A stretch of DNA of 35,080 nucleotides. Origin: Bdellovibrionales bacterium (lineage in GTDB: Bacteria; Bdellovibrionota; Bdellovibrionia; Bdellovibrionales; UBA1609). Within the stretch, counting starts at the first letter, position 1, and each line of letters opens with the position of its first letter. Made by a program: the position numbers and the translations under genes. Below are positions 7,766 to 27,750 of the stretch, piece by piece. Under the pieces are notes generated by a model. The model searched no databases and had not been told where the DNA came from. It saw only the letters and a list, made by a program, of their open reading frames with translations. Where the stretch lies: contig SKYF01000094.1 of the NCBI GenBank assembly GCA_007128005.1, forward strand, positions 1 to 35,080, in the 5' to 3' direction.

Positions 7766-7780
7766 GTCTCATTTTTAGAC
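7766..7780 (+). promoter_or_regulatory. Candidate enhancer site GTCTCA-N3-TTAGAC
   Basis: The left half is a perfect GTCTCA and the right half matches TGAGAC at 5 of 6 bases. It lies about 160 bp upstream of the -24 element before the matrixin gene, a distance at which sigma-54 enhancers can act by looping. The same dyad recurs at 11717, 13598, 20965 and 27681. Confidence 0.5.
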
Positions 7781-7933
7781 ATCTTAAATCCTATGTCAGA
7801 TTAGAGGCTTAGAGCTGTTTTTCGCCGAGCTGTTGATGCTGGTGGAATTCGATGGGCCCAAGGGGGCTTTGTCTGAAGTTCAGGAAAAACCCTAAAAGGT
7901 AGTTATCTTAGGCGCTTACAGGGATTTTTGTCG

Positions 7934-7950
7934 CTGGCACTGGACTTGCC
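7934..7950 (+). promoter_or_regulatory. Sigma-54 (-24/-12) promoter of the matrixin lipoprotein gene
   Basis: CTGGCAC-N5-TTGCC is an exact match to TGGCAC-N5-TTGC with the obligatory 10 bp between GG and GC. Transcription should begin near 7961, about 42 nt before the ATG at 8003. Ten fixed bases would occur by chance about 0.07 times on both strands of a window this size. Confidence 0.75.
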
Positions 7951-8002
7951 ATGTTCAAGGGTGTGATCGGAAAACTGGCTTTTCAGAAAGGATAAGATCA
8001 AC

Positions 8003-8641
8003 ATGTGGAACCGAGGTCTTGTGCCCCTTATCGGATTGATGGTGATGGCCTTATGGCTTCAGGCCTGCGGACGTGGCTTTGAGCCCCAGAATTCCTGTAA
8101 CTTTCTGCTCAGCAGTCAGCAGCAGAGAGTGTCTTGGAAGGGCAAGTTGCCCGTGCGCTTTCATATTCATGGCTCCGTCCCCAGTCAATACTACCAGGCC
8201 ATCGAGGCCGCGGCACAGATTTGGAACCAGGCCAGTCCCGGCCAGGAGCTGATTCGCATTGTGGGTTATGGGGTCTCTGGTCCCCCCGAGCCGCAGAGAG
8301 ATGGACACTCCGTGATCTATTGGATGAGACAATGGGACAGAGTCCGATCCAGAGAGCAGGCTCGGACAACCATTTACTGGGCCGGCACACAAATTCTGGA
8401 GACCGATATACTTGTCAATGCGGAGCCTGATAACCATCACTTTTATCCCGGGCTCTCACTCGATGGGATAAAACCCAACCAGGTCGATTTTAAGAGTTTG
8501 ATGGTCCATGAGTTTGGTCATGCCCTCGGGCTGACCCATACTGCTTCTGCGCCGAGCGTGATGTCCGCTTATTTGAGTTCAGGAGTGAAGCGGCGGGATC
8601 TGTCGGAGCAGGACATTAGCTCTCTGACCTGCGAGTACTAG
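8003..8641 (+). CDS. Matrixin-like zinc metalloprotease lipoprotein
   Basis: The 212-residue product begins with a signal peptide ending in the lipobox LQAC (C22 lipidated), so it should be exported and anchored. The C-terminal half carries the metzincin zinc site HEFGHALGLTH (H169, E170, H173, H179) and a following Met-turn VMS (M187), as in matrixins and related M10/M12 peptidases. The domain is small (about 160 residues) with no visible propeptide cysteine switch, so its activation is unclear. GAAAGGA lies about 10 nt before the ATG. An exact sigma-54-type promoter (7934-7950) and an upstream GTCTCA dyad (7766-7780) suggest activator-dependent, condition-specific expression. A role in degrading envelope or prey proteins is plausible given the family, but that is inference. 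Confidence 0.9.
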   Translation: MWNRGLVPLIGLMVMALWLQACGRGFEPQNSCNFLLSSQQQRVSWKGKLPVRFHIHGSVPSQYYQAIEAAAQIWNQASPGQELIRIVGYGVSGPPEPQRDGHSVIYWMRQWDRVRSREQARTTIYWAGTQILETDILVNAEPDNHHFYPGLSLDGIKPNQVDFKSLMVHEFGHALGLTHTASAPSVMSAYLSSGVKRRDLSEQDISSLTCEY

Positions 8642-8716
8642 TTGAGGGAGAATTTGTAAAAAGTTCCATATTGGAACCTGAGGCTCGAGAAGTTGTATTT
8701 TTTAAGTTAATTTAAG

Positions 8717-8745
8717 TTTTAGTCAGGGTTTTGTCTGGCTATGAT
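8717..8745 (+). promoter_or_regulatory. Weak candidate promoter for the small coiled-coil gene
   Basis: TATGAT (8740-8745) lies 17 bp after TTTTAG (8717-8722), about 43 bp before the ATG at 8789. The -10 is good but the -35 is poor. An A+T-rich stretch precedes it. Confidence 0.25.
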
Positions 8746-8788
8746 TAAGAAAAGTCAAAGGGCGACGAAAGTCCAAAGGAGAGGTCAA

Positions 8789-9040
8789 ATGAAACTGGCT
8801 TTGCAAGAAATGAGTGAAAAGACTGTGGCTGTGGCCGCCCGGAACTCTTTTGAGCCTCTTCATGCCTCAGGGGCTCTTCCGCTTCCGCAGAGTCGACCGA
8901 GCTCCCCCCTTTCAGAGCAGGTTTTTCCCAGGGATGTCTTAGAGCAGCTGAACAGTAATATCTCTGAGTTGGAGGACCTTCACGGTCGCCTTAAGTTTAT
9001 GATGGGCGAAGTGCAGTCCCTGGTTAAAAAAATTCGCTAA
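8789..9040 (+). CDS. Small coiled-coil protein of unknown function
   Basis: I do not recognise this 83-residue protein. The start is set by a strong AAAGGAGAGG Shine-Dalgarno (8775-8784) four nt before the ATG at 8789; an upstream in-frame ATG at 8741 overlaps the possible -10 element and has no ribosome site. Residues about 1-50 are low in structure and rich in P, S and A. Residues about 50-83 form a short amphipathic helix with heptad-like leucine, isoleucine and methionine spacing (LNSNISELEDLHGRLKFM) and a basic tail. There is no signal peptide, so it is probably cytoplasmic. It stands alone between the matrixin gene and convergent sua5. Confidence 0.65.
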   Translation: MKLALQEMSEKTVAVAARNSFEPLHASGALPLPQSRPSSPLSEQVFPRDVLEQLNSNISELEDLHGRLKFMMGEVQSLVKKIR

Positions 9041-9070
9041 AATTTTCAGGTTCTAGCTGATGAGCTCTTT

Positions 9071-10033
9071 TCAGCAGAGATAATTCTTCGTTGCTGCTCG
9101 ATTGAGACGATCCCATATGGAGCTCCACAGACCGGTACTATCTTTGTGGCTAGCCTGTACATAAATCAATTTGCACTCGGGTTTTTGGCTGAGGCTGCGC
9201 ATCTGAGCGTAGAGTTCTCTTGCAGCCAGCTGGGGAGAGGGGGCCAATACAAGTTCGTACATCTCTGATAGAGACACAGAGAAATCTTCTCTCGCTGTCG
9301 CAAGGTCTTCATTCTTACCCACAATAACTAAAGGTTGTTGGGGCTGATAGTGGTGGGTCAGATGACCCGGACTTTGCGGGTCACCGGCTCTCCATTTCAG
9401 TTCCCAGTCGGGAAAGTGGTCAGAGCGGTCAGTCAAAAAAGCTCTGAGATCTTCATCCGTAACCGCTCCAGGGCGAAGGATCACAAGTCGCCTTTCTTGA
9501 GATTGGACCTGTAAGACTGTCGACTCTATGCCAAGCTCACAAGCTCCTCCATCCAGCACCATCACCTGAGAGCCAAACTCACTCTGTACATGTTCGGCGC
9601 AGGTGGGGCTGGTGCGGCCAAACATATTGGCGCTGGGGGCAGCCAAGGGTCCTGTGCGCCTGAGTAGCTCTAGACTGAGAGGATGACGAGGGATGCGAAC
9701 TCCTACGGTCTCTAGCCCTGAGTTGATTAAGGGGTTCAGCTGGGGGTGAGCCTCCAGAATCAGAGTCAAAGGGCCGGGCCAAAAAGTCTCTGCCAGAGCG
9801 CAGGCCAGCTCCGGCAGCTGCAGAACGACGGCATTGAGTTGCTGAAGGTCTGCCACATGGACAATCAAGGGGTCAAAAAAAGGCCTCTGTTTAAGGCGAA
9901 ATATCGACTGCAGTCCACTTTCTCGGTCAATTCGCGCTGCCAAGCCATAGACGGTCTCAGTGGGTATGGCAACCACACCGCCTTGGTCGAGAATTCTTTC
10001 AGCTTGGTCCAGCCATGGGCTTTGGGATGTCAT
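9071..10033 (-). CDS. sua5: L-threonylcarbamoyladenylate synthase (Sua5/YwlC type)
   Basis: This enzyme makes threonylcarbamoyl-AMP from threonine, bicarbonate and ATP, the first step of the universal t6A modification at position 37 of ANN-decoding tRNAs. The YrdC-like domain (about 1-195) shows KQRPFFDPLIVHV near residues 44-56, SANMFGRTSPT near 134-144 and LRPGAVT. The C-terminal Sua5 domain begins with the conserved linker SPGHLTHHYQP (about 220-230). At 320 residues it is the long Sua5 form rather than the single-domain TsaC form. The gene follows the alpha-crystallin-fusion gene with only 14 bp between them, so the two are probably co-transcribed. The Shine-Dalgarno is weak. Convergent to the small coiled-coil gene. 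Confidence 0.93.
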   Translation of the reverse strand: MTSQSPWLDQAERILDQGGVVAIPTETVYGLAARIDRESGLQSIFRLKQRPFFDPLIVHVADLQQLNAVVLQLPELACALAETFWPGPLTLILEAHPQLNPLINSGLETVGVRIPRHPLSLELLRRTGPLAAPSANMFGRTSPTCAEHVQSEFGSQVMVLDGGACELGIESTVLQVQSQERRLVILRPGAVTDEDLRAFLTDRSDHFPDWELKWRAGDPQSPGHLTHHYQPQQPLVIVGKNEDLATAREDFSVSLSEMYELVLAPSPQLAARELYAQMRSLSQKPECKLIYVQASHKDSTGLWSSIWDRLNRAATKNYLC

Positions 10034-10047
10034 CTTAGCTGAGAGCT

Positions 10048-10854
10048 TTAACCCAAGGCTCCGATTTTGGGAACCCGAACTTTTAAAAAGCCGTCCTCAT
10101 AGCTGGTTTCAGCCAACTTGGTCTCCACCGGGAACCTGAGGGGCAGCTCCTGTCGAAAGCTCTGATAGCTGTTGGTCGTTAGTTTCGTGTCGGGCTCTTC
10201 GATGCGGTCCTGGAAGGAGCGAGCCCCGGAGATAACAAAGCGCTTGGGGTGTACGGCCACCTGAACATTGTCCTTTTCATGTTCGGGAACGGCCAATTCC
10301 AGTGTGTAGTGGCTGATGTCTTCTTTGAGACGTGAGTCAAGGTTCTGCATCCGATAAAATGGGTCTTCATGGCGCTCTATGTGCTGACCCAAGCGGCCTT
10401 GTATTTGGCGCTTTTGATTGTTCAGGGCTGTGATCATCCGCTCTCTCTGATTGATGAGGGCCTGGTGATTGAGTTCATTTCTGAGCCCATAGTTCTTTTC
10501 AAACTGGCGATTCTGTCGATCCAGCTCTTGATCATAGGCCTGCTGCTGGCGCTCGAGCTCTTGTTGATGGCGATGCTTTTGCTCCAGAAGAGTTTTCCTT
10601 TCATAGGTCAGTTGCTGTTGTTTCTTATGTTCCAGCTCCTGAACCCCGGACTCGTGGCGCTCCTTGATGTGATTGATAGTGGCTTGATTGTGCTCCCTTA
10701 GGCGCTGGAGCTCTGCTTGGTGTTGCTCTTCCAGTTGGCGCATCTGCTGCTGGTGCCTCTCCTGTGCAGACTGTCTCTGTTGAGCCTTCTCTTGGGTGGA
10801 GAGTTGAGTGGTCCCAGAGTTTACAGCGGGTGGTGTTTTGGAAATCTCAGACAT
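10048..10854 (-). CDS. Long coiled coil fused to an alpha-crystallin (Hsp20-like) domain
   Basis: Of 268 residues, about 20-160 form a continuous charged, glutamine-rich helix with heptad character (repeated QEL, RQQQ and LEEQ patterns). Residues about 180-265 resemble an alpha-crystallin domain: beta strands, a SFRQELPLRFPV strand and the terminal ASYEDG-like segment SYEDGFLKVRVPK. Small heat-shock proteins normally have a short disordered N-terminal arm; a 140-residue coiled coil is unusual and suggests a filament-like or tethered holdase. This is inference, and the classic C-terminal IxI tail is not evident. It has no signal peptide, so it should be cytoplasmic. GGAG lies 2 nt before the ATG, which is close. 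It precedes sua5 by 14 bp and follows the small exported protein gene by 47 bp on the same strand. Confidence 0.75.
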   Translation of the reverse strand: MSEISKTPPAVNSGTTQLSTQEKAQQRQSAQERHQQQMRQLEEQHQAELQRLREHNQATINHIKERHESGVQELEHKKQQQLTYERKTLLEQKHRHQQELERQQQAYDQELDRQNRQFEKNYGLRNELNHQALINQRERMITALNNQKRQIQGRLGQHIERHEDPFYRMQNLDSRLKEDISHYTLELAVPEHEKDNVQVAVHPKRFVISGARSFQDRIEEPDTKLTTNSYQSFRQELPLRFPVETKLAETSYEDGFLKVRVPKIGALG

Positions 10855-10901
10855 AGCTCCATTCTAAACGGCTCTGTGAAGCTTTTAAAGAGACCCGGCC
10901 C

Positions 10902-11228
10902 TTAATTGGCCTCCTCGACTGGACCTTGATCCTCAGGGACCAGGTCTTCAACCGGGGGTGGTCTTGGGCAAAGCGGGGCAAAGTGAGCTGTGCTTCCCCA
11001 GCACATCCAGGAGCCCAAATATTCAAAGGTCTCTCCTGGGTTGAGGGGATAATACTCCACGTACTGAAAGGGATCTAAAGTGGTCGTCACATGGCGAACC
11101 ACCTGAGCCTCGGCCAGGGGGTCATCTAGGTTGGTCTCAAGGATCCTCAGCTCAAAGACCCTGTACTCTGCGATAGCAGACCAGGGTGAGAGGCTTAAGA
11201 GTAAAAAAAACCAGACTCCAAACTTCAT
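10902..11228 (-). CDS. Small exported protein of unknown function
   Basis: The 108-residue product starts with a clear Sec signal peptide (basic MK, hydrophobic core, predicted cleavage after SAIA at about residue 20). The mature part is about 88 residues, contains two cysteines that could pair (MCW and PLCP), has a proline-rich region and ends in an acidic tail. It has no lipobox, so it should be soluble and periplasmic or secreted. I recognise no family. The start codon is fixed by the signal peptide, although the Shine-Dalgarno is poor. It is the first gene of a same-strand run with the alpha-crystallin fusion and sua5. Confidence 0.65.
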   Translation of the reverse strand: MKFGVWFFLLLSLSPWSAIAEYRVFELRILETNLDDPLAEAQVVRHVTTTLDPFQYVEYYPLNPGETFEYLGSWMCWGSTAHFAPLCPRPPPVEDLVPEDQGPVEEAN

Positions 11229-11279
11229 AGTAGAGGTATCGGAAAAAGGAGAAAAAAGCTTTCGCCCGCTTAGGCCAGT

Positions 11280-11597
11280 TTAGTGCTGGGGTGGGCTGGA
11301 GGCATGAAGACTGTTGTCCACAATATGGAAATAGGTTCGCACCAACATCTCGTAAGAAGTCTCGTCCAGCTGATGAAGGAACCGTCTTTTGGCCTGGACA
11401 CTGTCTTGCGCAATCAGCTGAGAAAAGAGTTCCTGGACCCTATTCATATTCTCAAAACTAAATAAATCGATCTCCTCGGAGGGCTTGCCCAAGATCTTGG
11501 CAATACTTTTATTATCGAAAAGATGATGAATCCCATTCATGGACTGAACCAAGAGATATTCAATTTCATCCAAGTGACTATCATCGAGACGCATCAT
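11280..11597 (-). CDS. Hypothetical helical protein, start uncertain
   Basis: The likely product is about 106 residues (MMRLDDSHLDEIEYL onward), rich in predicted helix with no signal peptide or known motif. I do not recognise it. An in-frame extension reaches 11897, but that part overlaps the divergent gene at 11751 and its strong promoter and reads like antisense sequence, so I cut it at the ATG pair at 11592-11597. No good Shine-Dalgarno is visible there, and a non-ATG start slightly upstream is possible. The gene is divergent from the duplicated-domain gene, and the shared region carries a sigma-70-type promoter and a perfect GTCTCA dyad, so the two may share regulation. Confidence 0.55.
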   Translation of the reverse strand: MMRLDDSHLDEIEYLLVQSMNGIHHLFDNKSIAKILGKPSEEIDLFSFENMNRVQELFSQLIAQDSVQAKRRFLHQLDETSYEMLVRTYFHIVDNSLHASSPPQH

Positions 11598-11648
11598 AGA
11601 CTCATTGTTTAAATAAAGCGGTTCCGGAGCAAGGAAAATGAGGTCAGT

Positions 11649-11677
11649 TTGACATGGATGGTCGTTATCTCTATGAT
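11649..11677 (+). promoter_or_regulatory. Strong sigma-70-type promoter TTGACA-N17-TATGAT
   Basis: A consensus TTGACA (11649-11654) lies exactly 17 bp before TATGAT (11672-11677), predicting a start near 11684 and a leader of about 67 nt before the ATG at 11751. A perfect GTCTCA/TGAGAC dyad lies within that leader, well placed for repression. Confidence 0.7.
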
Positions 11678-11716
11678 TAGGAATATGACTATGGTCCGGT
11701 CTTTTTTCAAAGCTCC

Positions 11717-11731
11717 GTCTCAAATTGAGAC
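11717..11731 (+). promoter_or_regulatory. Perfect dyad GTCTCA-AAT-TGAGAC
   Basis: This is the only fully symmetrical copy of the dyad. It lies about 34-48 nt downstream of the predicted transcription start and 19 bp before the start codon at 11751. As DNA it could be a roadblock operator; as RNA it would be a 6-bp hairpin just before the AAAGGG ribosome site. It is also about 120 bp upstream of the divergent gene. Confidence 0.6.
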
Positions 11732-11750
11732 ATTTCAGTAAAGGGTCAGC

Positions 11751-12596
11751 ATGAAGAGGTTGGATAACAAAAAGAACAATCCCCCCAGTATTGTGATTGA
11801 TGAGTCTCGGGGCTTGGTGTTTGCGTCCGAACAGGACCTGTACAAGCATTTCTCTAATGGTATTGAACACTTTGAAAAGGAGTTCTTTTCTCGGCACTCC
11901 TCCGCGGACATAGCTGCTGCTGACTTTTCTCAGTATGAGAAGAATCTCTCAGTCCTTCTGGAGGATCCCGATGAGGTCTGGGCTGAGGACAACGAGGTCG
12001 TGGGAGAGGAAGTGGTGATTTACTTGCGAAAGATGGGAGAGCTAGAGGGGGGAGCAAAGAGTCTCTATCATGTGGCCCTGTGCTATATGACAGAGGACAT
12101 TCCAAGCTTCGTCTATTTGCACTTCCCCACTCATGATGAGGACCTACTCAACAGCTATCGGAGGGGGGAGAAGGTCTATGATCGAAGTCAACGGGAGGCA
12201 CCTATTGGGGCTCTTGACGGCGATGCTCTGAACGAAGGGGATGAACTCGCCATGGGTCTCTATAAGGCCATGATGCTCTTGCGCAGTGAAAAGGATTTAC
12301 CAGAAGAAAACTTTCCCCAATACTATCATCTCAGAGAGGAGACCTTGGCTGAGGCGGACGAGATTTGGCGAAGTGCAGACTCTATGGGCAACATTCTCGT
12401 CAGTTTTATCCGAAACTTCTCTGAGGGAGGGGAGGGAGAGGAACTCTTTTATATAGTTGTCACCCTAGAAGATATGCCTTCGAACAGTCATGCACTGTTG
12501 TTTTCCTTCCCCACCGAGGATCGCAGCCTTGTTGACCGATATCGACATGGTGAAAACCTACAAGCTGACGAAGTCGTCCAGGAAGCCAGTCATTGA
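11751..12596 (+). CDS. Protein with an internally duplicated domain of about 110 residues
   Basis: I do not recognise the 281-residue product with confidence. It contains two related halves, about residues 26-143 and 162-270. Shared landmarks are DEVW (74-77) and DEIW (203-206), then LYHVAL and LFYIVV, then LHFPTHDEDLLNSYRRGE (123-140) and FSFPTEDRSLVDRYRHGE (251-268). Strand-rich units with such endings recall PBECR-like members of the barnase/EndoU/RelE nuclease fold; this is a guess from pattern only. It is very acidic, has no signal peptide and is probably cytoplasmic. AAAGGG precedes the ATG by about 6 nt. It has a near-consensus sigma-70-type promoter (11649-11677) with a perfect dyad between promoter and ribosome site, suggesting repression. 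It ends 7 bp from a convergent lipoprotein gene. Confidence 0.8.
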   Translation: MKRLDNKKNNPPSIVIDESRGLVFASEQDLYKHFSNGIEHFEKEFFSRHSSADIAAADFSQYEKNLSVLLEDPDEVWAEDNEVVGEEVVIYLRKMGELEGGAKSLYHVALCYMTEDIPSFVYLHFPTHDEDLLNSYRRGEKVYDRSQREAPIGALDGDALNEGDELAMGLYKAMMLLRSEKDLPEENFPQYYHLREETLAEADEIWRSADSMGNILVSFIRNFSEGGEGEELFYIVVTLEDMPSNSHALLFSFPTEDRSLVDRYRHGENLQADEVVQEASH

Positions 12597-12603
12597 GGGG
12601 AGT

Positions 12604-13506
12604 TTATCTGATAAGGCATCTGGGTAAAGTGATTTCTGCTTTAGGTTTGCATTGCAGAGGAGGGCATCTTTGGTCTGCAAAATCGACATGGCCGACTAAG
12701 CAGGAGAGGGTTTGCTGATGGTCATCAGAAGTCAGGACCTCCTCTTGGCTGTGAACCTCTGACCACAAGAGAAGCCCATCTTCCACAGCAAAGAGCATTC
12801 GCCCCTGGATCAGACTTTTAAAGATCAGCTGCTCGGTATCGATTTGGGGGATCTCCAAATCTCCTGAGATATCTATGTCCGCACACCAGCCAAAGTCTGG
12901 ACAGCGCACCAGGCGAGTAAAAATACCTGCAACTCGCAAAATCAGGGGCAGTCCTCCCGGAGCCATCCAGCCGTGGCTGATCTCCCAGGTGTCTCCTGTA
13001 CTCACGGGTCGGTCAGGTAAGGGTATAGGTGGAACATAAAAGTGCGATGTCGGTGGATGGTCTCCTACTTGAAGGACCTCTGCCTGTGGCGAGAAGCTGT
13101 AGTCAAGTTCCTCATTGAGCTCTGGAAACCCCAAATTATTTAAATCAATCCGACCCTCTTTACTCAGAGTCCTCAGGCGGTGGCGAACAATGCTTTCTAG
13201 GGCAGGCACCATGGCTGTATTTAATACTTCAGAAACCTCAGGCTGTGTGGGTTTCGGGGCCAAGTGAGTGGTTTCGACGGAAAAGCGGCCACTCGTTGAT
13301 TTTTCTCTGATGAGCTGAGAGCTTTCAAAAGTTCTCAGTTGAGTCAGAGTAAAATAATCATATACAAAGCTCTTTGTGCTGGAGGGGGCCTTGAGCTCAA
13401 GATTGAGAGGAGTGGTCGGGGGCCTTGTGGCACAGCCAAAGCTCAAGATAGCGCTCAGTCCGAGGCACGAATAGGCTAAACAACTGTAAAGTTTATGCGC
13501 GATCAT
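12604..13506 (-). CDS. Predicted lipoprotein of unknown function
   Basis: The 300-residue product starts with a signal peptide and lipobox LSFGC (C25). The mature part begins with a proline- and threonine-rich linker and continues as a mixed domain. Cysteines cluster late (CPDFGWC near 200, then CLVG, CPPLQC and PRC near the end), suggesting disulphides. I recognise no family; the strand-rich core with a G-D-TW segment (VSTGDTWEISHGW, about 167-179) resembles some uncharacterised envelope proteins. AAGG about 7 nt upstream supports the ATG. It is divergent from another lipoprotein gene at 13688, and the shared region has a GTCTCA dyad and a sigma-54-type promoter pointing the other way. Confidence 0.75.
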   Translation of the reverse strand: MIAHKLYSCLAYSCLGLSAILSFGCATRPPTTPLNLELKAPSSTKSFVYDYFTLTQLRTFESSQLIREKSTSGRFSVETTHLAPKPTQPEVSEVLNTAMVPALESIVRHRLRTLSKEGRIDLNNLGFPELNEELDYSFSPQAEVLQVGDHPPTSHFYVPPIPLPDRPVSTGDTWEISHGWMAPGGLPLILRVAGIFTRLVRCPDFGWCADIDISGDLEIPQIDTEQLIFKSLIQGRMLFAVEDGLLLWSEVHSQEEVLTSDDHQQTLSCLVGHVDFADQRCPPLQCKPKAEITLPRCLIR

Positions 13507-13549
13507 GAGTTGGCCTTAATTTTCAATGTAATTACAAGAGCTTATTCAT

Positions 13550-13563
13550 AAACTCCAGAGTTT
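13550..13563. promoter_or_regulatory. Dyad AAACTC-CA-GAGTTT in the divergent lipoprotein promoter region
   Basis: Perfect 6-bp arms sit 35 bp from the GTCTCA site and about 83 bp upstream of the -24 element, within the range of sigma-54 enhancers. It could be a second activator site or an operator for the minus-strand gene. There is no T-run, so it is not a typical terminator. Confidence 0.3.
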
Positions 13564-13597
13564 GTTGCCGTCAAGTCTGACTAACTTTCAGCGCATT

Positions 13598-13612
13598 GTC
13601 TCATTTTGAGAG
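13598..13612 (+). promoter_or_regulatory. Candidate enhancer site GTCTCA-N3-TGAGAG
   Basis: Perfect left half, right half 5 of 6 against TGAGAC, centred about 41 bp upstream of the -24 GG of the promoter at 13644-13660. Confidence 0.5.
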
Positions 13613-13643
13613 CTGTGGGCAAGGAATTTAGGCAACTGAGGGC

Positions 13644-13660
13644 TTGGCACCCTTTTTGCC
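13644..13660 (+). promoter_or_regulatory. Sigma-54 (-24/-12) promoter of a lipoprotein gene
   Basis: TTGGCAC-N5-TTGCC matches the consensus exactly, with GG and GC 10 bp apart. Transcription should start near 13671, about 17 nt before the ATG at 13688. Confidence 0.78.
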
Positions 13661-13687
13661 TCTCTAAAGGAAACAGGGGGAATTTAT

Positions 13688-14536
13688 ATGTTCAGCAAAG
13701 CTCTTCGGATTTCATTTTTTAAGGCCCACAAAGGTCGACACATTCAGTTGGCCCTATTGGTGTCTCTGAGTCTGCTCTTTTTGGGCTGTGAGGCCTCCAA
13801 GGTCCAGAGAGTCGTGCAGACGGATATGAGCAGCCGCGATGGCAGTCGAGGCTCTAATTTTCCAACCCTTCCAGATGGACCTAGCGGGGGGGATCTGTGT
13901 CAGTCGGAAATTTGTAGTGACTGCGGACGTGTTGCTCACTCTGGCCAGAGCTTTGAGGCAGTTCTGAGCTCCTATGTGGATCCTCAGACAAGGGCTTACA
14001 TTTTAGATTTGGTGCGCCTGAGAATCACTCAGCCAGTTGCCAACTGGAGCACCTCTGATTCCGAGTATATGCAGATATTTCGCTTTGAAGAAGACGAGAG
14101 TGGGCGTCGGTTTAACAATCAAGCTGTTGAGATCAGCTTTCAAAAAAAGTACGGGGACAGAAGGTATCTGCCTACCACTCTCACACAGATTTCGAAGGCC
14201 GGTCTGATGGAATTGATCAGCAGACACAGTTTGGGCGATGACGGGGTGAGTTTAACAAACTTTTTCGAGCACTTTATCATGACTTTAAGAGATATCGACT
14301 TGATCTATGAGGGGTTCACCTTTGCCTTTTACGATGCCGAATCGGCAGATCCCTCTGAGGCTGTGGCCCGAGCTGATACTCTCATTCCATCCTTTATTGC
14401 CAACCCGAACAAATATGCAGCCTTCAGGCAAAACACGAGTCTTCCAAGACTCCACCCACTTTACCACTTGCGCAATAGCACCATGAATGATGATCAGTAC
14501 TTCTATAAGGCCAATGAATTCTGTCTCATGTTCTAA
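13688..14536 (+). CDS. Predicted lipoprotein under sigma-54-type control
   Basis: The 282-residue product has a long basic n-region, a hydrophobic core and lipobox LFLGC (C34). A serine- and glycine-rich linker follows, then a cysteine cluster (C70, C75, C78) and a helical C-terminal domain of about 200 residues without a motif I recognise. It ends within five residues of another cysteine. The GGGGG-containing stretch upstream can serve as ribosome site. It is preceded by an exact -24/-12 promoter (13644-13660) and a GTCTCA dyad (13598-13612). The protein should be anchored in the envelope; function unknown. Its end lies 20 bp from the convergent mutS2 stop codon. Confidence 0.8.
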   Translation: MFSKALRISFFKAHKGRHIQLALLVSLSLLFLGCEASKVQRVVQTDMSSRDGSRGSNFPTLPDGPSGGDLCQSEICSDCGRVAHSGQSFEAVLSSYVDPQTRAYILDLVRLRITQPVANWSTSDSEYMQIFRFEEDESGRRFNNQAVEISFQKKYGDRRYLPTTLTQISKAGLMELISRHSLGDDGVSLTNFFEHFIMTLRDIDLIYEGFTFAFYDAESADPSEAVARADTLIPSFIANPNKYAAFRQNTSLPRLHPLYHLRNSTMNDDQYFYKANEFCLMF

Positions 14537-14543
14537 TAGGGGA

Positions 14544-14569
14544 TCAATCAGCCAGCTCAATCAGCCAGC
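14544..14569. repeat. 13-bp tandem duplication at the mutS2 stop codon
   Basis: Two adjacent identical copies of tcaatcagccagc lie at 14544-14556 and 14557-14569. The second contains the mutS2 stop and its last codons; the first lies just downstream, so the protein is unchanged. It looks like a recent slippage duplication. Confidence 0.8.
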
Positions 14570-19426: not shown

Positions 19427-19446
19427 GGGAGATCTTTCAGGTGAGC

Positions 19447-20889
19447 TTAAGGCTTATCTTGAGTGACAGCCTCTTTTTGAGCAGCTGCTAGCACACTTCT
19501 GAGGTGTCCTCTGAGCTCCTGATTAAAGTCCTTGATCTCGGCCACAGAAGTCGTGTTGAGATTGGAGCCTATGTCAGAGGTGCGCACCCTGTCTTCGTCT
19601 GAGACAAAGCGAGTCTCGCGCATATTGCGAGTGTTTTCGGCAATGGCGCCATTGGCGGCAATCCCCTGATCTAAAATTGACAGAGCTCTATAGGAATTCA
19701 GGCGCCTCTGATAACGGGTTTTGCCGGCGAGATTCTGATCGAGATCCCCCGTTTGAGTGATAAAGCGGACCACTTGATGGGGGCTGAGGTTTCGGTTGTT
19801 GGCCATAATAAGGGCGGCCACTCCACTGACAAAGGCGGTGGCTTGAGAGGTGCCAGTCATGGTTCCATAGCGAGACCCAGGAAGAGTCGAGCGAATTTCA
19901 TTTCCGGGGGCTGCAATATGAACTGAGTTCACTCCATAGTTGGAGGTCGGAAGCACGGTGGTCTGTTGATTAAAAGCAGTCACTGAGATGATATTGTCGA
20001 GTTCATAGTCGGCAGGGTAGTACTTTCTAACGTCAGAGTTTGAGCTCTCGTTGCCGGCAGCAGCAACCACGAGAATGCCGGCTTTTTGGGCCCGCTCGAT
20101 GGCTTTTCTCTCCTCTTGGCTGGGGTCAAGACCTCCACCAGAGTAGTTGATAATATGAGCTCCGTTGTCAATGGCATAGTGTATGGCGCGAACCGTGTTC
20201 ATGAGGTTGCTTGATCCAGGGGCTTTGGGATCATAGTACTTCAGGGTCATCAAGCTGACATTTGGAGCTACGCCCAAGGCTCCACCTTTTTGTCTTCCGG
20301 TAGCTCCAATAATTCCAGAGATATGAGTTCCGTGCCCGTGATTGTCCGTGAGGTCGTTGTTACTGGCAACAAAGTTCCAGCCATAGACATCGTCAACAAA
20401 GCCATTGCCATCGTCATCGATGTTGTTACTTGCCTTGTCCCGCCCTTGGGAATCAAGTCCACTTTCTCCTGGATTGCGCCATAGGTTGTCTTTGAGATCA
20501 GGGTGTTGAATGTCAATTCCCGTGTCGATCACAGCAATGACAATGTCTCGACTGCCTTGGCTGATTCTCCATGCCTGATCGGACTGAGTGAGGGAAAGAC
20601 CCCATTTTTGTTGAACACTCAAATCGTTAAATAATATAGATTTCGGTTTGTCAGAACTCTTTGCATTTTGAGTTTTTGGATCTTTGAGCTCAATGGGCTG
20701 GCGATGGAACCCAGGGTTTGTTGAGGAAAATTCCCAGCTCTGAATATCTATAGAATCTACTTGGGTAGATACAGATGTAGAGGGCTTGAGAAGAACATGC
20801 CCTAGCAAACCACTGGTCAAAACAATGCCAAAGGCCCATAGAAGGGGTGAGGAACTCAAGGACATTTTATCATGAGTGGGTGCGTTCAT
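19447..20889 (-). CDS. Subtilisin-like serine protease (S8), exported
   Basis: The 480-residue protein has the full subtilase catalytic set: D122 in AVIDTGID, H186 in HGHGTH, oxyanion N280 in AAGNESS and S348 in GTSQA (usually GTSMA). An acidic DDDGNGFVDD loop (about 158-167) resembles a calcium-binding insertion. A hydrophobic segment at about 15-34 acts as signal or anchor, and a linker of about 80 residues precedes the catalytic domain. The 70-residue tail after about 410 has no known domain. The first ATG lies only 1 nt after AAAAGGG, too close for good initiation; an ATG nine codons in is the alternative. Upstream lie a sigma-54-like element (20902-20918) and a half-conserved GTCTCA dyad. 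With the matrixin it is one of two exported proteases apparently tied to the same signal. Confidence 0.92.
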   Translation of the reverse strand: MNAPTHDKMSLSSSPLLWAFGIVLTSGLLGHVLLKPSTSVSTQVDSIDIQSWEFSSTNPGFHRQPIELKDPKTQNAKSSDKPKSILFNDLSVQQKWGLSLTQSDQAWRISQGSRDIVIAVIDTGIDIQHPDLKDNLWRNPGESGLDSQGRDKASNNIDDDGNGFVDDVYGWNFVASNNDLTDNHGHGTHISGIIGATGRQKGGALGVAPNVSLMTLKYYDPKAPGSSNLMNTVRAIHYAIDNGAHIINYSGGGLDPSQEERKAIERAQKAGILVVAAAGNESSNSDVRKYYPADYELDNIISVTAFNQQTTVLPTSNYGVNSVHIAAPGNEIRSTLPGSRYGTMTGTSQATAFVSGVAALIMANNRNLSPHQVVRFITQTGDLDQNLAGKTRYQRRLNSYRALSILDQGIAANGAIAENTRNMRETRFVSDEDRVRTSDIGSNLNTTSVAEIKDFNQELRGHLRSVLAAAQKEAVTQDKP

Positions 20890-20901
20890 ACCCTTTTCTA
20901 A

Positions 20902-20918
20902 AGCAATTGGGGTGCCGT
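20902..20918 (-). promoter_or_regulatory. Sigma-54-like promoter upstream of the subtilase
   Basis: On the minus strand, ACGGCAC-N5-TTGCT has GG and GC 10 bp apart and differs from TGGCAC-N5-TTGC by one base. The expected start is near 20891, almost at the annotated ATG, so either the message is nearly leaderless or translation starts at the internal ATG at 20863-20865. Confidence 0.45.
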
Positions 20919-20964
20919 GAAGGCTACAGCCTAACCCATTGATTTTACCTATTTATTTTTGCAT

Positions 20965-20979
20965 GGGTCAGACTGAGAC
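20965..20979 (-). promoter_or_regulatory. Degenerate enhancer-like site GTCTCA-N3-TGACCC
   Basis: On the minus strand the left half is perfect and the right half matches 4 of 6 bases. Its centre is about 56 bp upstream of the -24 GG, similar to the 41 and 49 bp seen at two other promoters. Confidence 0.3.
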
Positions 20980-21049
20980 GGCCCTGGGATGACAAAATGT
21001 TAGAGCTTCGTCAACTCCTTAGCCAGAGCCTCATTTCCTATAGGTCTTC

Positions 21050-22717: not shown

Positions 22718-22787
22718 GACAACTCCCATCTGTGAGACTGTTGACAAGTACTTTAGGACCTTCTTAGGACTTTGTCCAGCCAGGGTA

Positions 22788-24932
22788 TCACTGGCCAGTA
22801 GGGGGAGAGACCTTTTGACCAGCCATGGCAGCCTCAATCAAACTCAAAGCGCGAGCCTGAGCCTTTTCCATCAGGGCCTGTTGGCTGCCGAGTTCAGGGT
22901 CCTTGGGGCCAGCCTTGCGCAGCTTGTAGCCTCCCTCTGAGTTCATATCCCAGGCCAGGCGCTGATCCTTAAGCTGCATCTGGAGCGACTCCCAGAGTTT
23001 TTCCTTGAGGCCTCGCTCCATCAGAGGGCAGAGCACCTCTACTCGTCGCTTCAAGTTGCGCCTCATCCAGTCGGCAGAGCCAATCAAAAAGTGTCCATCC
23101 AGCGGGTCCTTATGTCCCTGGCGAAAGTAAAAAGCCCTTGTGTGCTCCAGAAGGGGACCCAAAATTGAGATCACGGAGATGTTTTCGCTCAAGCCCTTTT
23201 TTTGGGGAACCAGGGTACAAAACCCACGTACGATCATCTGTATGGGGACTCCTGCAGCAGAGGCTTCATAGAGGGCCTCAATAAGGTCTTGATCTTGAAG
23301 GTTGTTGCACTTGACGATGATTCCAGAGGGCCTGTTCTTTTTTGCTAGCTCGGTTTCCTTCTGAATCAAACTCAATAGGCACTCTTTGAGGTTGAGGGGG
23401 GCGACGAGCAGATGCTGGTAATCTGACTTCAGCGAGCGGCCCGTCAAGTAGTGAAAAATCTCAATCACCTCTGAGGTGATTTCGGGCCGACAAGTAAAGT
23501 AGCTCATATCTGTATACAGCTTGGCGGTGTGAGGGTGATAATTGCCCGTGCCAATATGGACGTAGGAGCGGAACTCCTCTTTTTCTTGGCGCACAATCAG
23601 TGTTAGCTTTGCATGGGTCTTCAGGCCAACGAGACCATAGACCACGTGGACCCCCGCTCTCTCAAGAGCTTGGGCCAAGACAATATTTCGCTCTTCATCA
23701 AAGCGGGCTTGCAGTTCAATCAGGCACACCACCTGTTTGCCCCTTTCTGCGGCCTGGATCAGAGACTGAACGATGGGGCTATTTTCCAGGGTTCGGTAGA
23801 GAGTCATTTTGATGGCCACCACTTGGGGATCTTTTGCAGCCGTGCTGATAAAGCGCTCGACACTGGTGCGAAAGCTCTCATAGGGGTGGTGTACCAGAAG
23901 GTCATGGTTTTTTATGGCCGTAAAAATACTAGTTTCTTCATCCAGCAGAGCGGGGTGGCTGACACTGGGCCAGGCTTTAAACTTCAGGGCAGGGATGTCT
24001 AGTTCAGCGATGGCTCCCAGGTCCTTGCTCTCCAAAAAGAAGGGGTATTCGTAGACATCCTCAGGCTCCAGTTCGAGCTCCTCTAAAAGGAAATTCAAGA
24101 GCCAGGGGTCAGGCTGAGGGCCAACTTCAAGGCGCACCACTTCGGCCCAGCGTCGCTGTTTGACTTCCTCTTCAATCAGTTCCAACAGGTCTTCTGCGTC
24201 TTCGACATCGGCTTCGATGTCGACATTTCGGGTGACTCGAAAGGGCATGACAGCCTGAATTTCCATAAACGGAAAAAGATCCTGTAGATTTTGTCGCACT
24301 AAAGTCAGAGTTGAAACAAAGCGGTGCTCAGCCTTATTGTCACCCGGAGCGACTGTTTGCGGAATTCGAATCCAAGCTGCAAAAACCTGCGGAATTTTTA
24401 TGCGGGCAAAGAGCAGGTCTTCTTCTCTGGGGATTTTTAAGGCCACGGCCAAAGATGTGGAGAGGTTTGAAATAAGAGGAAAGGGGTGTCCCAAATCCAC
24501 AGCCATTGGTGTCAAGACGGGAAAAATCTTAGCGCGAAAAAACTCATCGGCCCAATCCTGCTCGCTTTTGGAGAGCTCTTGCCACTCCAGGAGTTGAATT
24601 CCCTGCTCCTTTAAGCCTTGACCCAACTCGACATGAATCAGTTCGTCAACGACTGGGTTGAGGGCGAGCAGGTGGCTGCGGATTTGTTCGAGCTGCGCTT
24701 CGGCCGTCAGCCCGTCCTGTGACAGAGTGGAGACCTTAGAGAGATGTTGTCTCTTGAGGCCGCCGACCCTCTTCATGAAAAACTCGTCTAAATTCGAATT
24801 GTAGATGTTCAAAAAGCGAATGCGCTCTAGTAGCGGCAAGCGAGGGTCTTGGGCCTGAAATAAAACCCGTTGGTTGAACTTAAGCCAACCCAATTCACGG
24901 TTGAAGAACTCATAGGTTTTGGTCTCTGCCAT
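22788..24932 (-). CDS. ppk: Polyphosphate kinase 1
   Basis: PPK1 reversibly transfers the gamma phosphate of ATP to polyphosphate. The 714-residue protein has the N domain (NRELGWLKFN, 11-20; NLDEFFMKRVGGL), the head domain, and the two phospholipase D-like C domains. The autophosphorylated histidine is H440 in LKTHAKLTLI; the second histidine region shows GHFLIGSADWMRRNL. Length is normal for the family. AGGG about 9 nt before the ATG overlaps the end of the patatin gene, which stops 11 bp upstream, so the two are very probably co-transcribed. No exopolyphosphatase lies nearby. Confidence 0.96.
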   Translation of the reverse strand: MAETKTYEFFNRELGWLKFNQRVLFQAQDPRLPLLERIRFLNIYNSNLDEFFMKRVGGLKRQHLSKVSTLSQDGLTAEAQLEQIRSHLLALNPVVDELIHVELGQGLKEQGIQLLEWQELSKSEQDWADEFFRAKIFPVLTPMAVDLGHPFPLISNLSTSLAVALKIPREEDLLFARIKIPQVFAAWIRIPQTVAPGDNKAEHRFVSTLTLVRQNLQDLFPFMEIQAVMPFRVTRNVDIEADVEDAEDLLELIEEEVKQRRWAEVVRLEVGPQPDPWLLNFLLEELELEPEDVYEYPFFLESKDLGAIAELDIPALKFKAWPSVSHPALLDEETSIFTAIKNHDLLVHHPYESFRTSVERFISTAAKDPQVVAIKMTLYRTLENSPIVQSLIQAAERGKQVVCLIELQARFDEERNIVLAQALERAGVHVVYGLVGLKTHAKLTLIVRQEKEEFRSYVHIGTGNYHPHTAKLYTDMSYFTCRPEITSEVIEIFHYLTGRSLKSDYQHLLVAPLNLKECLLSLIQKETELAKKNRPSGIIVKCNNLQDQDLIEALYEASAAGVPIQMIVRGFCTLVPQKKGLSENISVISILGPLLEHTRAFYFRQGHKDPLDGHFLIGSADWMRRNLKRRVEVLCPLMERGLKEKLWESLQMQLKDQRLAWDMNSEGGYKLRKAGPKDPELGSQQALMEKAQARALSLIEAAMAGQKVSPPTGQ

Positions 24933-24943
24933 GCCTAAAGGCC

Positions 24944-26125
24944 CTATCCTTGTTGGGTTAAGAAGCCCATGACTTCTTCTTGCTTGTCGTACACGTCTTT
25001 GTAGCCCAGATCAACCAGTGCGCTACAGTATTCCGGCTCAAACAGGAGGTAGCTCAGGAGCTCTGCAGACTCCTTCGGCGAGCCAAGCGAGTCCACAAGA
25101 AAGCCAATCATGCGGGGAAGGGTTTTGCGGTGGGCTTCAGCGATAAGCGCTAGGCGCTGAGAGGGGTACAGGTAAAGAGTGTTGATGACGTTCAGTGCGG
25201 GCAACTCCTGATCTTTGATATGCTCCTTTACAGCGGAAAAAAGCTTTACGCTTTTGTTGATTCTCTCGAGCCGCTCCATATCGGTCTCAATGGCATCCAT
25301 AAAAATTGCATCAATCAAGATGCTTAGGATGCGCCCCAGGGTCGGGTGAATCTCTTTGGCATCTTGAGTGCGATGCTCCACCTTTTGGCGCCAAGATCTG
25401 ACTCCAATCACCACCAGGTTTTGCGCCCCCAAGTGAATGGCCGGACTTAAAGGGGCAGTGTTTCTCAGGCTGCCGTCGCCATAGTAGCGGTCATCAATGG
25501 CTGTGGCCGGAAAAAACAAGGGAATGGCCGTCGAGGCCAAGACATGGGAGGCATTGATTTTGGCCCGTTCACTGCGCCTGGCCGCTCTGGCCCACATGGG
25601 GATTTCGGGAGCCCCTTCGACAAAGGTCACGCCAAGGCTTGTGGCATAGTCCGTGGCAGAGACAGAAATGGCCTTGATATGGCCTTGAGAGATATTTTTG
25701 CGAATTTTCTCAAACTCAATATGGGTCTGAATGAGTTCGGCCAAGGGTTTTGTATCCAGCAGGGAAGCTGAGATGGGGCGAAGTCGTCCAGAAATCCCCC
25801 CTAAAGACACCCCACGGGCTAGACGCAACGCGTTTCGAGAGATAGAAATTGAATCTGTGCGAAAAACCTGTTCGGCCTGAATAGTCCTCCAGAGCTCAAC
25901 GAGCTTTTTGGTCGCTTGGTCGAGGTCTTCCACCTCACTGGCCAAAAACGTACAGTTGATAGCTCCTGCACTGACCCCAGAGAGTATGCGAAAGGGCGAG
26001 AAGTTTTGCGTCTCTCGGCACATTTCATAGAGTGCCCTTGCCGCTCCGGCTTGATAGGCTCCCCGCGCCCCTCCTCCTGAGAAGACAATTCCATACTCTC
26101 TTGATGAAATCTGGGTCTGAACCAT
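24944..26125 (-). CDS. Patatin-like phospholipase
   Basis: From the ATG at 26123-26125 the product has 393 residues. The patatin domain (about 11-225) shows the oxyanion hole GGGARG (17-22), nucleophile S52 in GVSAG and the aspartate of the dyad, D217, in YGDGSLRN. The remaining 170 residues are helical and without a known domain. Family members hydrolyse acyl ester bonds of phospholipids or neutral lipids. No signal peptide is visible, so it may be cytoplasmic, membrane-associated, or exported by another route. AAAGGG touches the ATG directly, which is unusually close; a TTG six codons upstream is the alternative start. It heads the patatin-ppk-ETF-QO run. Confidence 0.9.
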   Translation of the reverse strand: MVQTQISSREYGIVFSGGGARGAYQAGAARALYEMCRETQNFSPFRILSGVSAGAINCTFLASEVEDLDQATKKLVELWRTIQAEQVFRTDSISISRNALRLARGVSLGGISGRLRPISASLLDTKPLAELIQTHIEFEKIRKNISQGHIKAISVSATDYATSLGVTFVEGAPEIPMWARAARRSERAKINASHVLASTAIPLFFPATAIDDRYYGDGSLRNTAPLSPAIHLGAQNLVVIGVRSWRQKVEHRTQDAKEIHPTLGRILSILIDAIFMDAIETDMERLERINKSVKLFSAVKEHIKDQELPALNVINTLYLYPSQRLALIAEAHRKTLPRMIGFLVDSLGSPKESAELLSYLLFEPEYCSALVDLGYKDVYDKQEEVMGFLTQQG

Positions 26126-26239
26126 CCCTTTATTTTGGAGCAAGTAGACGGGCTGTCAAGGCCTGGACAAGGGTGATCTTCCTGGGTAGAGTCTGGCAGC
26201 TTAAAACTTGCCTTTTTTAAATTTGGAGGGATGAGAACT

Positions 26240-26641
26240 ATGGAAATGTCTTACTTGATCTTTCGTCTCAGCTTTGCTTTGACCATGGCCTATGCCCATG
26301 GTCTGCCCAAACTCATGAACTTTTCGGCTGTGGCTGAGAGGTTTCCAGACCCCATTGGTCTTGGCTCTCAACTCAGTTTGATTTTGGCTGTAGGGGCAGA
26401 GCTTGGAGCCGCCTTATTTGTAGCTTTTGGACTGCTGACTCGGCTGATGTCCATCCCCCTTATTATCACCATGGCCGTGGCTTTTTTTATTGTTCACGCC
26501 TCAGATCCTTTTCAGCAAAAGGAGTTGGCTTTTTTATTTATGATGGCTTTTATTGCGACCTTTGTTGGGGGGAGCGGTCATTACTCCATCCAGAATTTTC
26601 TGAGACTGACCTCTGGAAAGTTCTCCTGGATTCTGCGTTAA
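26240..26641 (+). CDS. DoxX-family membrane protein
   Basis: The 133-residue product has four hydrophobic segments and the family-typical start (LIFRLSFALTMAYAHGLPKL), GAELGAALFVAFGLLTRL in the middle, and an FxxMAFIATFVGGSGHYSI end. DoxX-like proteins are small inner-membrane proteins, some linked to redox balance or organosulphur metabolism; the role here is unknown. The ATG at 26240 was chosen because GGAGGG lies 9 nt upstream; an ATG at 26231 abuts that site directly. It is divergent from the patatin gene and convergent with the nuclease gene. Confidence 0.85.
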   Translation: MEMSYLIFRLSFALTMAYAHGLPKLMNFSAVAERFPDPIGLGSQLSLILAVGAELGAALFVAFGLLTRLMSIPLIITMAVAFFIVHASDPFQQKELAFLFMMAFIATFVGGSGHYSIQNFLRLTSGKFSWILR

Positions 26642-26670
26642 CCGGATCCTCGCGGTAAAAGAGAGCAGAC

Positions 26671-27576
26671 TTAAAAGTTGTCAATAAGGTCGACCAGCTC
26701 CGGGTGGTCGATAAAGGGGTTTCTGACCCCCTGCTTTTCAAAGATTCTCTCATGGCGCCAGATTTCAAACTCGTCGACAGGGTCTTGCCAGTGCCATTTG
26801 CGCAGGTAGTACTCCTCCACCTCTGAGATGGGAAGCTGATAGCGAACGGCAAAGTAAAATAAGGCCCTGGCCACATTTCCCTTGTGATCATCGGGAGGTT
26901 CGTAAAAGGTCTGTGAGCCGCCATAGCGATTTTGGCCTTTTTTAGAGGGCTCGCAGGTGTCATGGGTGATTGTGTGCACCTCTGCAAACTCAAAGTTGCT
27001 GCGTTGGGTGTTGGCAGAGGGGGTGGTCGGATAGATCGCATGGAGGTCAGACTTCTGCAGGGACTTGGCGTATCTGTCAGAGAATCGGCTTTGCGGCCAA
27101 GTGTGCTCTGTATTGATGGTGAGGTGGCCAGGGATTTGTCCGGGGCCGGGCTGGCGGTTTTTGGGGAAGTCGCCGGGACCGTAATCACGCTCACAGTACA
27201 CGCAGCGAATCACATACTCGCCGTTGATCTCCTCTAAATGCAGATAACCATAGAGGTAGCGCCGGGCCTTGAGATAGCTAAAGTAGCGATGTCCGTAACA
27301 GCCCTTGTTGCGATAGGGCTCACAGCTGCTCACCAATTTATCAGGAGCGCTTTTCTGAGGCACATGGAAAGAAGAGAGAACCTGATAGAGGGCCTCCCTC
27401 AGTAGGGCTCCCGACGCTCCCTGCTCAAGATGCTCGTAGAGGTGGGCGTAGTAAGAAAGTCGCTCCTCTTCAGGGACCTGAAGAGCCTGGGCGAGGCTCG
27501 CTGCAAAGATGGGGAGCAGGAGAAGGGTGGAGAGGAGAAGACGATAAAGTCCTTGGTGGAGTGATCTCAGTTGCAA
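26671..27576 (-). CDS. endA: Exported endonuclease I (EndA/NucM family)
   Basis: This is a non-specific DNase of the His-Me finger fold, normally periplasmic or secreted. The 301-residue protein starts with a signal peptide (cleavage near ASLAQA, about residue 31). The catalytic motif NTEHTWPQS is at 155-163 with H158; SDLHAIYPT, the RSN segment, GNVARALFYFAVRY and the closing FEIWRHERIFEKQGVRNPFIDHPELVD are all family-typical. Two CxxC-like pairs (C85/C93, C125/C128) could be disulphides, which inhibit or stabilise some homologues. The only start allowing the signal peptide is a TTG with a G-rich stretch 4 nt upstream. A secreted DNase would help to use DNA from other cells (inference). Confidence 0.92.
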   Translation of the reverse strand: MQLRSLHQGLYRLLLSTLLLLPIFAASLAQALQVPEEERLSYYAHLYEHLEQGASGALLREALYQVLSSFHVPQKSAPDKLVSSCEPYRNKGCYGHRYFSYLKARRYLYGYLHLEEINGEYVIRCVYCERDYGPGDFPKNRQPGPGQIPGHLTINTEHTWPQSRFSDRYAKSLQKSDLHAIYPTTPSANTQRSNFEFAEVHTITHDTCEPSKKGQNRYGGSQTFYEPPDDHKGNVARALFYFAVRYQLPISEVEEYYLRKWHWQDPVDEFEIWRHERIFEKQGVRNPFIDHPELVDLIDNF

Positions 27577-27680
27577 TGCGCCCCCCTAAGCGTTGTAATT
27601 ATTTCAAGGCTAGCAAGTTCATAGGCCTAGGCCCAGTTAAAAATCTCGAACCAAACAGAATCCTAACAGAGAGCGAAAGT

Positions 27681-27695
27681 GTCTCACTTTGAGGC
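27681..27695 (+). promoter_or_regulatory. Candidate enhancer site GTCTCA-N3-TGAGGC
   Basis: Perfect left half, right half 5 of 6 against TGAGAC, about 49 bp upstream of a -24/-12-like element and about 100 bp before the lipoprotein ATG at 27786. Confidence 0.5.
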
Positions 27696-27734
27696 AAAGC
27701 ATTGAATTTATTAAAAAAAATTGGAATATACAGG

Positions 27735-27750
27735 TTGGGACTGTTATGCT
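27735..27750 (+). promoter_or_regulatory. Sigma-54-like element with a spacer one base short
   Basis: TTGGGAC followed by TGTTA and TGCT resembles TTGGCAC-N5-TTGCT with one base deleted, so GG and GC are 9 rather than 10 bp apart. The distance to the ATG at 27786 and to the dyad at 27681 matches the other promoters. Spacing is normally strict, so activity is doubtful. Confidence 0.3.

Follow-up and report, generated by a model that had tools for sequence, protein, structure and literature searches.

What is a short inverted repeat doing in front of genes for apparently exported proteins in a Bdellovibrionales genome? The question is raised by a 35,080-nucleotide stretch of the assembly GCA_007128005.1 (contig SKYF01000094.1, positions 1 to 35,080; hereafter the window), for which a preliminary description had listed five copies of the dyad GTCTCA-N3-TGAGAC and proposed a regulon of exported proteins transcribed from sigma54-type (-24/-12) promoters. 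A comparison with the rest of the genome and with its relatives supports both a shared regulatory dyad and a regulon, the latter right in kind. The explanation that we prefer, with a probability of about 0.55, is that a longer form of the dyad, TGTCTCA-N3-TGAGACA, serves as the operator of one conserved transcription activator specific to the order Bdellovibrionales, which at sigma54 sites would be an enhancer-binding protein (EBP). Computation shows the site, its conservation throughout the order, its location ahead of genes and the sigma54 and sigma28 elements oriented toward those genes, whereas activation, a single binder and its identity as an EBP are inferred. It is the operator that is claimed here and not its binder.

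Little of the gene control of Bdellovibrio-like predators has been mapped. In the accessible part of the attack-phase study of Bdellovibrio bacteriovorus HD100 (PMC3627812), FliA explains about two thirds of the mapped attack-phase promoters, and no strong motif is reported there for the rest. An order-wide operator, together with lists of its targets and two promoter classes, would make a missing regulatory layer directly testable in a tractable laboratory predator.

The dyad and its distribution

The five positions and their mismatch counts in the window were all as described: the copy at 11717 is perfect, those at 7766, 13598 and 27681 carry one mismatch each, and the copy at 20965, best read on the minus strand, carries two. 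At no more than one mismatch, four sites compare with a mean of 0.13 and a maximum of 1 in 60 first-order Markov simulations, which makes the random expectation given earlier (0.08) about right. At up to three mismatches the count does not exceed chance (19 sites vs 16.4), and the copy at 20965 is unremarkable alone, further two-mismatch sites being present in the window at 11927 and 19591. All four strong sites are intergenic according to our own gene calls, in agreement with the preliminary description, although for 11717 this depends on the start of the minus-strand open reading frame (ORF) 11280-11897, the longest form of which would include the site.

The genome that carries the window (G000, 2.57 Mb in 212 contigs) contains 11 perfect and 38 one-mismatch dyads, 49 in total, vs 11 copies of a reversed control motif at up to one mismatch, and by arithmetic about 0.15 perfect copies would be expected at random. 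In the alignment of the 49 copies the dyad is preceded by T (67%) and followed by A (67%). These flanking letters extend it to a 17-bp palindrome with an odd centre, TGTCTCA-N3-TGAGACA, so that the site is both real and larger than had been claimed. At up to one mismatch, this 17-mer occurs 26 times in G000 (reversed control, 0) and in all 98 relatives, with up to 40 copies each; some small genomes hold only 1-4 copies, and in G022 the control count is equal (3 and 3). The exact 17-mer was found in 65 of the 98 genomes and its reversed control in none.

The wider sample of the phylum, 289 genomes, places the boundary of the motif at the order. The 17-mer is present in 104/104 genomes of Bdellovibrionales, the three genomes from a different order of the class have 1, 2 and 0 copies, and in the other classes it was found in 56 of 182 genomes with 71 copies vs 55 for the reversed control (sums made by hand), that is, at control level. 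A drifted motif, TGTYTCA-N3-TGARACA, gave mixed results in 12 mostly small genomes, being frequent in some (13 vs a control of 0 in G030, 15 vs 2 in G014) and at control level elsewhere (6 vs 6 in G022, 4 vs 3 in G036), so that the label "dyad-poor" is uncertain for such genomes. The dyad is very probably an order-wide control site of Bdellovibrionales. No report of the motif was found among the literature matches listed for the motif or for a Bdellovibrio regulon.

The position of the dyad relative to genes was determined for 205 sites: 45 from G000, 39 from a genome similar to that of HD100 (G071, hereafter HD100-like), 35 from G064, 30 from 29 loci elsewhere, and another 56 exact copies. 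Tandem genes flank 104 of these sites, divergent genes 56 and convergent genes a single one; 31 fall inside predicted genes, and 13 are at contig edges. For 110 of the 151 dyad-gene pairs, the start codon lies 40-160 bp from the dyad. The gene finder was home-made, trained per genome for G000, G071 and G064 and on mixed genomes for the other sets, and its start calls may be wrong. These positions fit a protein-binding site located at promoters and misfit a terminator. Some promoters with the dyad are kept across families. The matrixin gene of the window has its dyad 222 bp upstream and its HD100-like homologue (L142) 298 bp upstream, the latter with a weaker TGGCCC-N5-TTGT before its start, and the divergent gene pair around 11717 is kept together with an exact 17-mer dyad in another family (L264). 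One HD100-like locus (L131, G071 178924-184509) carries a pair of dyads that share their sequence and immediate surroundings at a distance of about 2.4 kb; the pair may stem from the duplication of a promoter or gene.

Sigma54 and sigma28 elements downstream of the dyad

Sigma54 elements were defined by GG-N10-GC together with at least 8 of the 10 letters of TGGCAC-N5-TTGC. In 150 dyad-to-start segments (17.0 kb), 22 such elements are in the orientation of the gene and 2 are reversed, while ordinary upstream regions of the same loci (23.9 kb) contain 16 and 7, respectively. The enrichment is specific to the spacer, with 22 matches at a spacer of 5 vs 1-4 at eight other spacers. Around the tandem sites of the first set, 15 of 17 forward elements lie downstream of the dyad (3 reverse), and in a second set of 28 tandem segments all 9 forward elements do so, with none in reverse. 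The pooled 204 unique segments, which include close relatives (e.g. L088/L090, L240/L245, L125/L089) and therefore are not all independent, contain 33 forward and 2 reverse elements. In the HD100-like genome, sigma54 elements are found in 8 of 38 dyad segments vs 9 of 224 ordinary upstream regions drawn from 400 kb (Fisher p 0.0009), an enrichment of about 5-fold.

The sigma54 reading is half the story, and the other half is sigma28. In an unbiased k-mer count past the dyads, the most strand-asymmetric 6-mer was CCGATA, with 32 forward and 2 reverse occurrences vs 10 and 6 in ordinary upstream regions. This word is the -10 box in TTAAG-N16-CCGATA, the sigma28 promoter motif found at 92 of 140 attack-phase promoters of HD100 in the part of that study available (PMC3627812). 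Its placement follows that of the sigma54 elements: 20 of 23 forward copies lie downstream of the dyad in the first tandem set (3 reverse), in the second set 5 of 6 (2 reverse), and the pooled segments contain 42 forward and 3 reverse copies. In the HD100-like genome, CCGATA occurs in 11 of 38 dyad segments vs 20 of 224 ordinary upstream regions (Fisher p 0.0015). The two classes are nearly disjoint, as CCGATA is found at 41 of 163 dyads, sigma54 elements at 33, and both together at just 2; in total, 72 of the 163 dyads have an element of one or the other type. Neither a fixed dyad-to-promoter distance nor an excess of sigma70-like pairs after dyads was found (16 forward and 9 reverse, background 20 and 19).

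The box found behind the dyads is therefore the same as that of the FliA programme of HD100, from which the present sites differ in that the dyad also serves sigma54 promoters. As far as its accessible text goes, the search in the attack-phase study covered the 50 bases before each start site (PMC3627812), so that most dyads fall outside it. At four loci (L124, L168, L176, L136), CCGATA ends 8 bp before the predicted start, suggesting leaderless transcripts or miscalled starts.

Candidate binders of the dyad

Among possible binders of the dyad, an EBP of the NtrC type is the likeliest. In the mechanism that we propose, a dimeric protein would bind the dyad upstream of the promoter and raise transcription, the activated genes including those for motility, pili, receptors of cyclic di-GMP (c-di-GMP) and exported enzymes. 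In the sigma54 subset, an NtrC-family EBP with a Fis-type helix-turn-helix would contact the sigma54-polymerase; in the sigma28 subset, the same site might act via an auxiliary activator, or the protein might have a second role like that of FleQ. Weaker second dyads within 120 bp are in excess around 215 dyads (70 vs 13 for the reversed motif, or 60 vs 11 if L328 and overlaps are excluded), as might be expected for NtrC-type sites. The locus L328 (213-414, contig C30 of G031) carries five dyad-like sites with 1-3 mismatches before TGGCAT-N5-TTGC and a gene that by eye resembles those of pentapeptide-repeat proteins.

It is conceivable, though on balance doubtful, that one Bdellovibrionales-specific protein activates the disjoint sigma54 and sigma28 classes through one dyad, acting as a second attack-phase master regulator beside FliA. 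If so, this dual-class regulator would join pili, flagella (through an FlgM-like protein and flagellin), c-di-GMP receptors and secreted hydrolases.

Several known regulators bear a resemblance to such a system. NmpR of Myxococcus xanthus, according to the portion of its description available, recognises GCGCA-N5-TGCGC ahead of -24/-12 promoters, where in most cases a second site accompanies the first (PMC11841059). Its site and the dyad share an odd-centred inverted repeat and a 5-5-5 half-site layout; the letters of the dyad differ, however, about as many dyads serve sigma28 promoters, and larger genomes hold tens of sites. FleQ/FlrA-type regulators act at sigma54 and sigma70 promoters and recognise the box GTCA-N6-TGAC, from which the letters of the dyad differ. 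In the accessible sections of another study, the action of one EBP-type protein of the FleQ/FlrA kind on genes for flagella, adhesion and biofilms is described as dependent on c-di-GMP, the hallmarks of PilR sites are a NifA-like TGT-N11-AGA and GTCT elements, and the predicted Geobacter PilR targets include pilus, flagellar and cell-wall genes (PMC6058289). The dyad can be read as TGT-N11-ACA with GTCT in both halves, and in this it resembles the sites of the PilS-PilR systems of Pseudomonas and Geobacter as far as these are described there. It differs from them in that dyads are not concentrated near PilR-like genes and that the motif is confined to one order.

G000 has 13 matches to PF00158, 10 of them strong, and none is tied to the dyad. 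The best candidate, though a tentative one that we would not expect to hold, is a PilR-like EBP (C14, 11.2-12.6 kb), labelled so from an upstream kinase-like gene read by eye and a C-terminal FRSMRYR helix, which we take to be a mark of PilR-like proteins; among the 25 NCBIfam matches listed of 124 models for this protein there was no PilR model and none above the cut-off. Its AAA+ domain as a query gave a match at E of 1e-70 or lower in 83 of the 98 relatives, and about 1 kb from its gene in G000 a dyad (C14:13684) precedes a prepilin-like gene. A type IVa pilA was not located, and a pattern search of 400 kb of the HD100-like genome gave no prepilin-like ORF. The next candidate, less probable than the PilR-like protein, belongs to a receiver-less EBP group (L203 in G000) that is present in all four genomes of the EBP survey as well as in G010 and G031, with a similar protein in G002; it was not found in G015 or G042, genomes with a completeness of 87 and 89%. 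An EBP of another group, A, was rejected as the binder, as it is also present in dyad-poor genomes; in addition, it has a receiver domain, a further difference from the FleQ/FlrA type.

A number of observations weigh against the preferred explanation or against its PilR-like candidate. The remaining 15 relatives have no PilR-like match at this threshold and yet each has at least one dyad at up to one mismatch, in some cases well above the control given in brackets (11 (1) in G070, 6 (0) in G044, 7 (0) in G010, 5 (1) in G002); several of these genomes are incomplete, and G031 has a 60% identical PilR-like protein and G002 a divergent one. PilR is widespread, and the motif is absent outside the order. 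The 80 loci around PilR-like genes (906 kb) hold just one dyad, so that nothing sets the pil locus apart as a target. The preliminary description had envisaged an EBP gene with its own conserved copy of the dyad; none was found among the EBP loci examined, nor was any other regulator gene of this kind. Out of 30 EBP loci just L197 has a two-mismatch site. Out of 16 further loci, of which 12 are EBP loci from four genomes, 3 are PilR-like and 1 is a spare, just L297 has one, at the locus edge. In five small genomes, sites with 1-2 mismatches occur at three of 21 EBP loci: about 0.27 kb before a group-F EBP gene (L278 of G002, one mismatch), close to the 5' end of an EBP ORF (L292) and beyond the 3' end (L275). 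We know of no EBP that activates sigma28 promoters, which are as frequent here as sigma54 promoters. At the thresholds used, 91 of the 163 dyads have neither promoter type.

In G000 itself the association of dyads with promoters is not shown statistically. Sigma54 elements occur in 6 of 48 dyad segments vs 10 of 104 other upstream regions (p 0.39; 6/48 vs 8/102, p 0.26, without two dyad-linked background regions), and CCGATA in just 1 of the 48. The proposal of sigma54 promoters at dyads is therefore partly borne out, by the orientation of the elements and by their enrichment in the HD100-like genome; they accompany a minority of dyads, and their excess in G000 is not significant.

Of the other explanations, the strongest, although we consider it rather unlikely, is that the dyad is the operator of a conventional attack-phase activator, not an EBP, which aids sigma28 and other polymerases, the nearby sigma54 promoters belonging to other EBPs. 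The prominence of CCGATA (32/2) would be natural for such a protein, as would its position, 39-94 bp away from the dyad centre for 33 of the 42 copies, and the absence of hidden sigma54 elements in the 42 sigma28 segments (3 forward and 5 reverse matches at 7 of the 10 letters). Moreover, 6 of the 33 sigma54 elements lie 14-16 bp from the dyad centre, nearer than usual enhancers (1.7 expected at 14-17 bp with random placement, P 0.006). This explanation leaves the 33/2 orientation of the sigma54 elements and their enrichment in the HD100-like genome in want of a reason, and odd-centred 17-bp sites with weaker second copies fit NtrC-type proteins.

A repressor operator that silences attack-phase genes during growth is improbable. 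Some dyads do lie within about 20 bp of a predicted start codon (11717, L041, L026), and 2 of 42 overlap the -35 region of CCGATA promoters; in the other 40, the dyad ends upstream of the expected start of the sigma28 -35 box, and promoter elements are seldom found upstream of the dyad (3/23 for CCGATA and 2/17 for sigma54 in the first tandem set). Far less probable again is that the regulator is a Crp/Fnr-family protein encoded on contig C168 (L041:1812-2480), the gene of which has its own dyad, TGTTTCACTCTGAGACA, 19-20 bp upstream. A two-mismatch site also precedes its orthologue in the sister genome G001, but 27 of 28 other orthologue loci have no site at up to two mismatches, a site in L067 being located just after the gene. 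This protein is disfavoured as the binder by the patchy distribution of its close orthologues (above 160 bits in 28 of 98 genomes, its own included, vs 98 of 98 for the dyad). Crp/Fnr sites are, besides, even-centred, which weighs against such a binder. The gene is probably a member of the regulon in its own genus. Finally, a terminator hairpin, a restriction or methylation motif or chance, for which the palindrome and the two GTCTC words inside it could be cited, is practically dismissed by the near absence of the dyad between convergent genes, its upstream position and its order-wide conservation, and chance is refuted by the exact reversed 17-mer, with zero copies in 98/98 genomes.

Genes of the window and other targets

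The strong dyads of the window are listed without a strand. The first, TGTCTCATTTTTAGACA (7765..7781), lies 5' of a matrixin gene (Peptidase_M10, 8003..8641, plus strand; PF00413, E 4.6e-10), the product of which is a lipoprotein by reading of its sequence, with a perfect -24/-12 element, TGGCACTGGACTTGC (7935..7949, plus strand), 53 bp from the ATG. The dyad TGTCTCATTTTGAGAGC (13597..13613) is likewise followed by a perfect element, TGGCACCCTTTTTGC (13645..13659, plus strand), 28 bp from the ATG of a gene without a Pfam match (13688..14536, plus strand). Seven perfect copies of TGGCAC-N5-TTGC were listed for the 2.57-Mb genome, and those at 7935 and 13645 are among them. On the minus strand, the weak dyad CGTCTCAGTCTGACCCA (20964..20980; 3 mismatches in 14 letters, alone not above chance) precedes a plausible -24/-12-like element, CGGCACCCCAATTGC (20903..20917, 9/10 letters), and a subtilase gene (19447..20889; PF00082, E 7.1e-58). 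The dyad TGTCTCACTTTGAGGCA (27680..27696) has no canonical -24/-12 element behind it, where only TTGGGACTGTTATGC is found, with a GG-to-GC gap of 8 or 9 bases and not 10; the following gene (27787..28346, plus strand; ORF from 27702, start picked by eye) encodes an exported-looking protein without a Pfam match. Thus, of the four dyads that had been said to precede a -24/-12 element, two do so perfectly, the weak copy at 20965 does so plausibly, and for 27681 the spacing is wrong. An Endonuclease I family gene (PF04231, 26671-27576) is divergent from the 27681 dyad.

The perfect 12-letter core, within CGTCTCAAATTGAGACA (11716..11732), is located between divergent genes, one of which (11280..11597, minus strand, start uncertain) has no Pfam match and has its homologue in L264, while the other (11751..12596, plus strand) encodes a protein with a PBECR2 nuclease-like domain (PF18810, E 2.7e-11) and starts 18-19 bp past the dyad.

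With a crude predictor, exported-like proteins make up 23 of 47 targets vs 35 of 126 other genes in G000 (p 0.008) and 21 of 39 vs 129 of 352 in the HD100-like genome (p 0.03), so that of the proposed regulon of exported proteins there remains a modest excess. Pfam scans covered 40 proteins near dyads in G000, 30 in the HD100-like genome, most of them without a match, and 146 others. PilZ proteins account for 7 of the 146 targets, among which no other family was matched more than three times, and for three targets in G000. BLAST clustering revealed a subtilase cluster that recurs in eight loci of several families, and FlgM-like anti-sigma28 proteins (four loci) and Flp pilins (three loci) were recognised by reading of sequences. 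Single targets in G000 include a flagellin, an L,D-transpeptidase, a lytic transglycosylase, a prepilin-like protein and the Crp/Fnr protein, and further targets are ordinary enzymes as well as many proteins without a known family. Control by LexA (SOS) was rejected, as no recA, lexA or uvr-type families were found among the 40 proteins near dyads in G000.

One gene on contig C57 of G000 (L024:542-2395), with a dyad 124 bp upstream, encodes a subtilase with a fervidolysin-like prodomain and a C-terminal PilZ domain; it is unusual for a protease and a c-di-GMP receptor domain to be combined in one protein. Four other dyad-linked proteins (L168, L222, L238 and L113) combine a C-terminal PilZ-like part with an N-terminal part that is receiver-like by eye.

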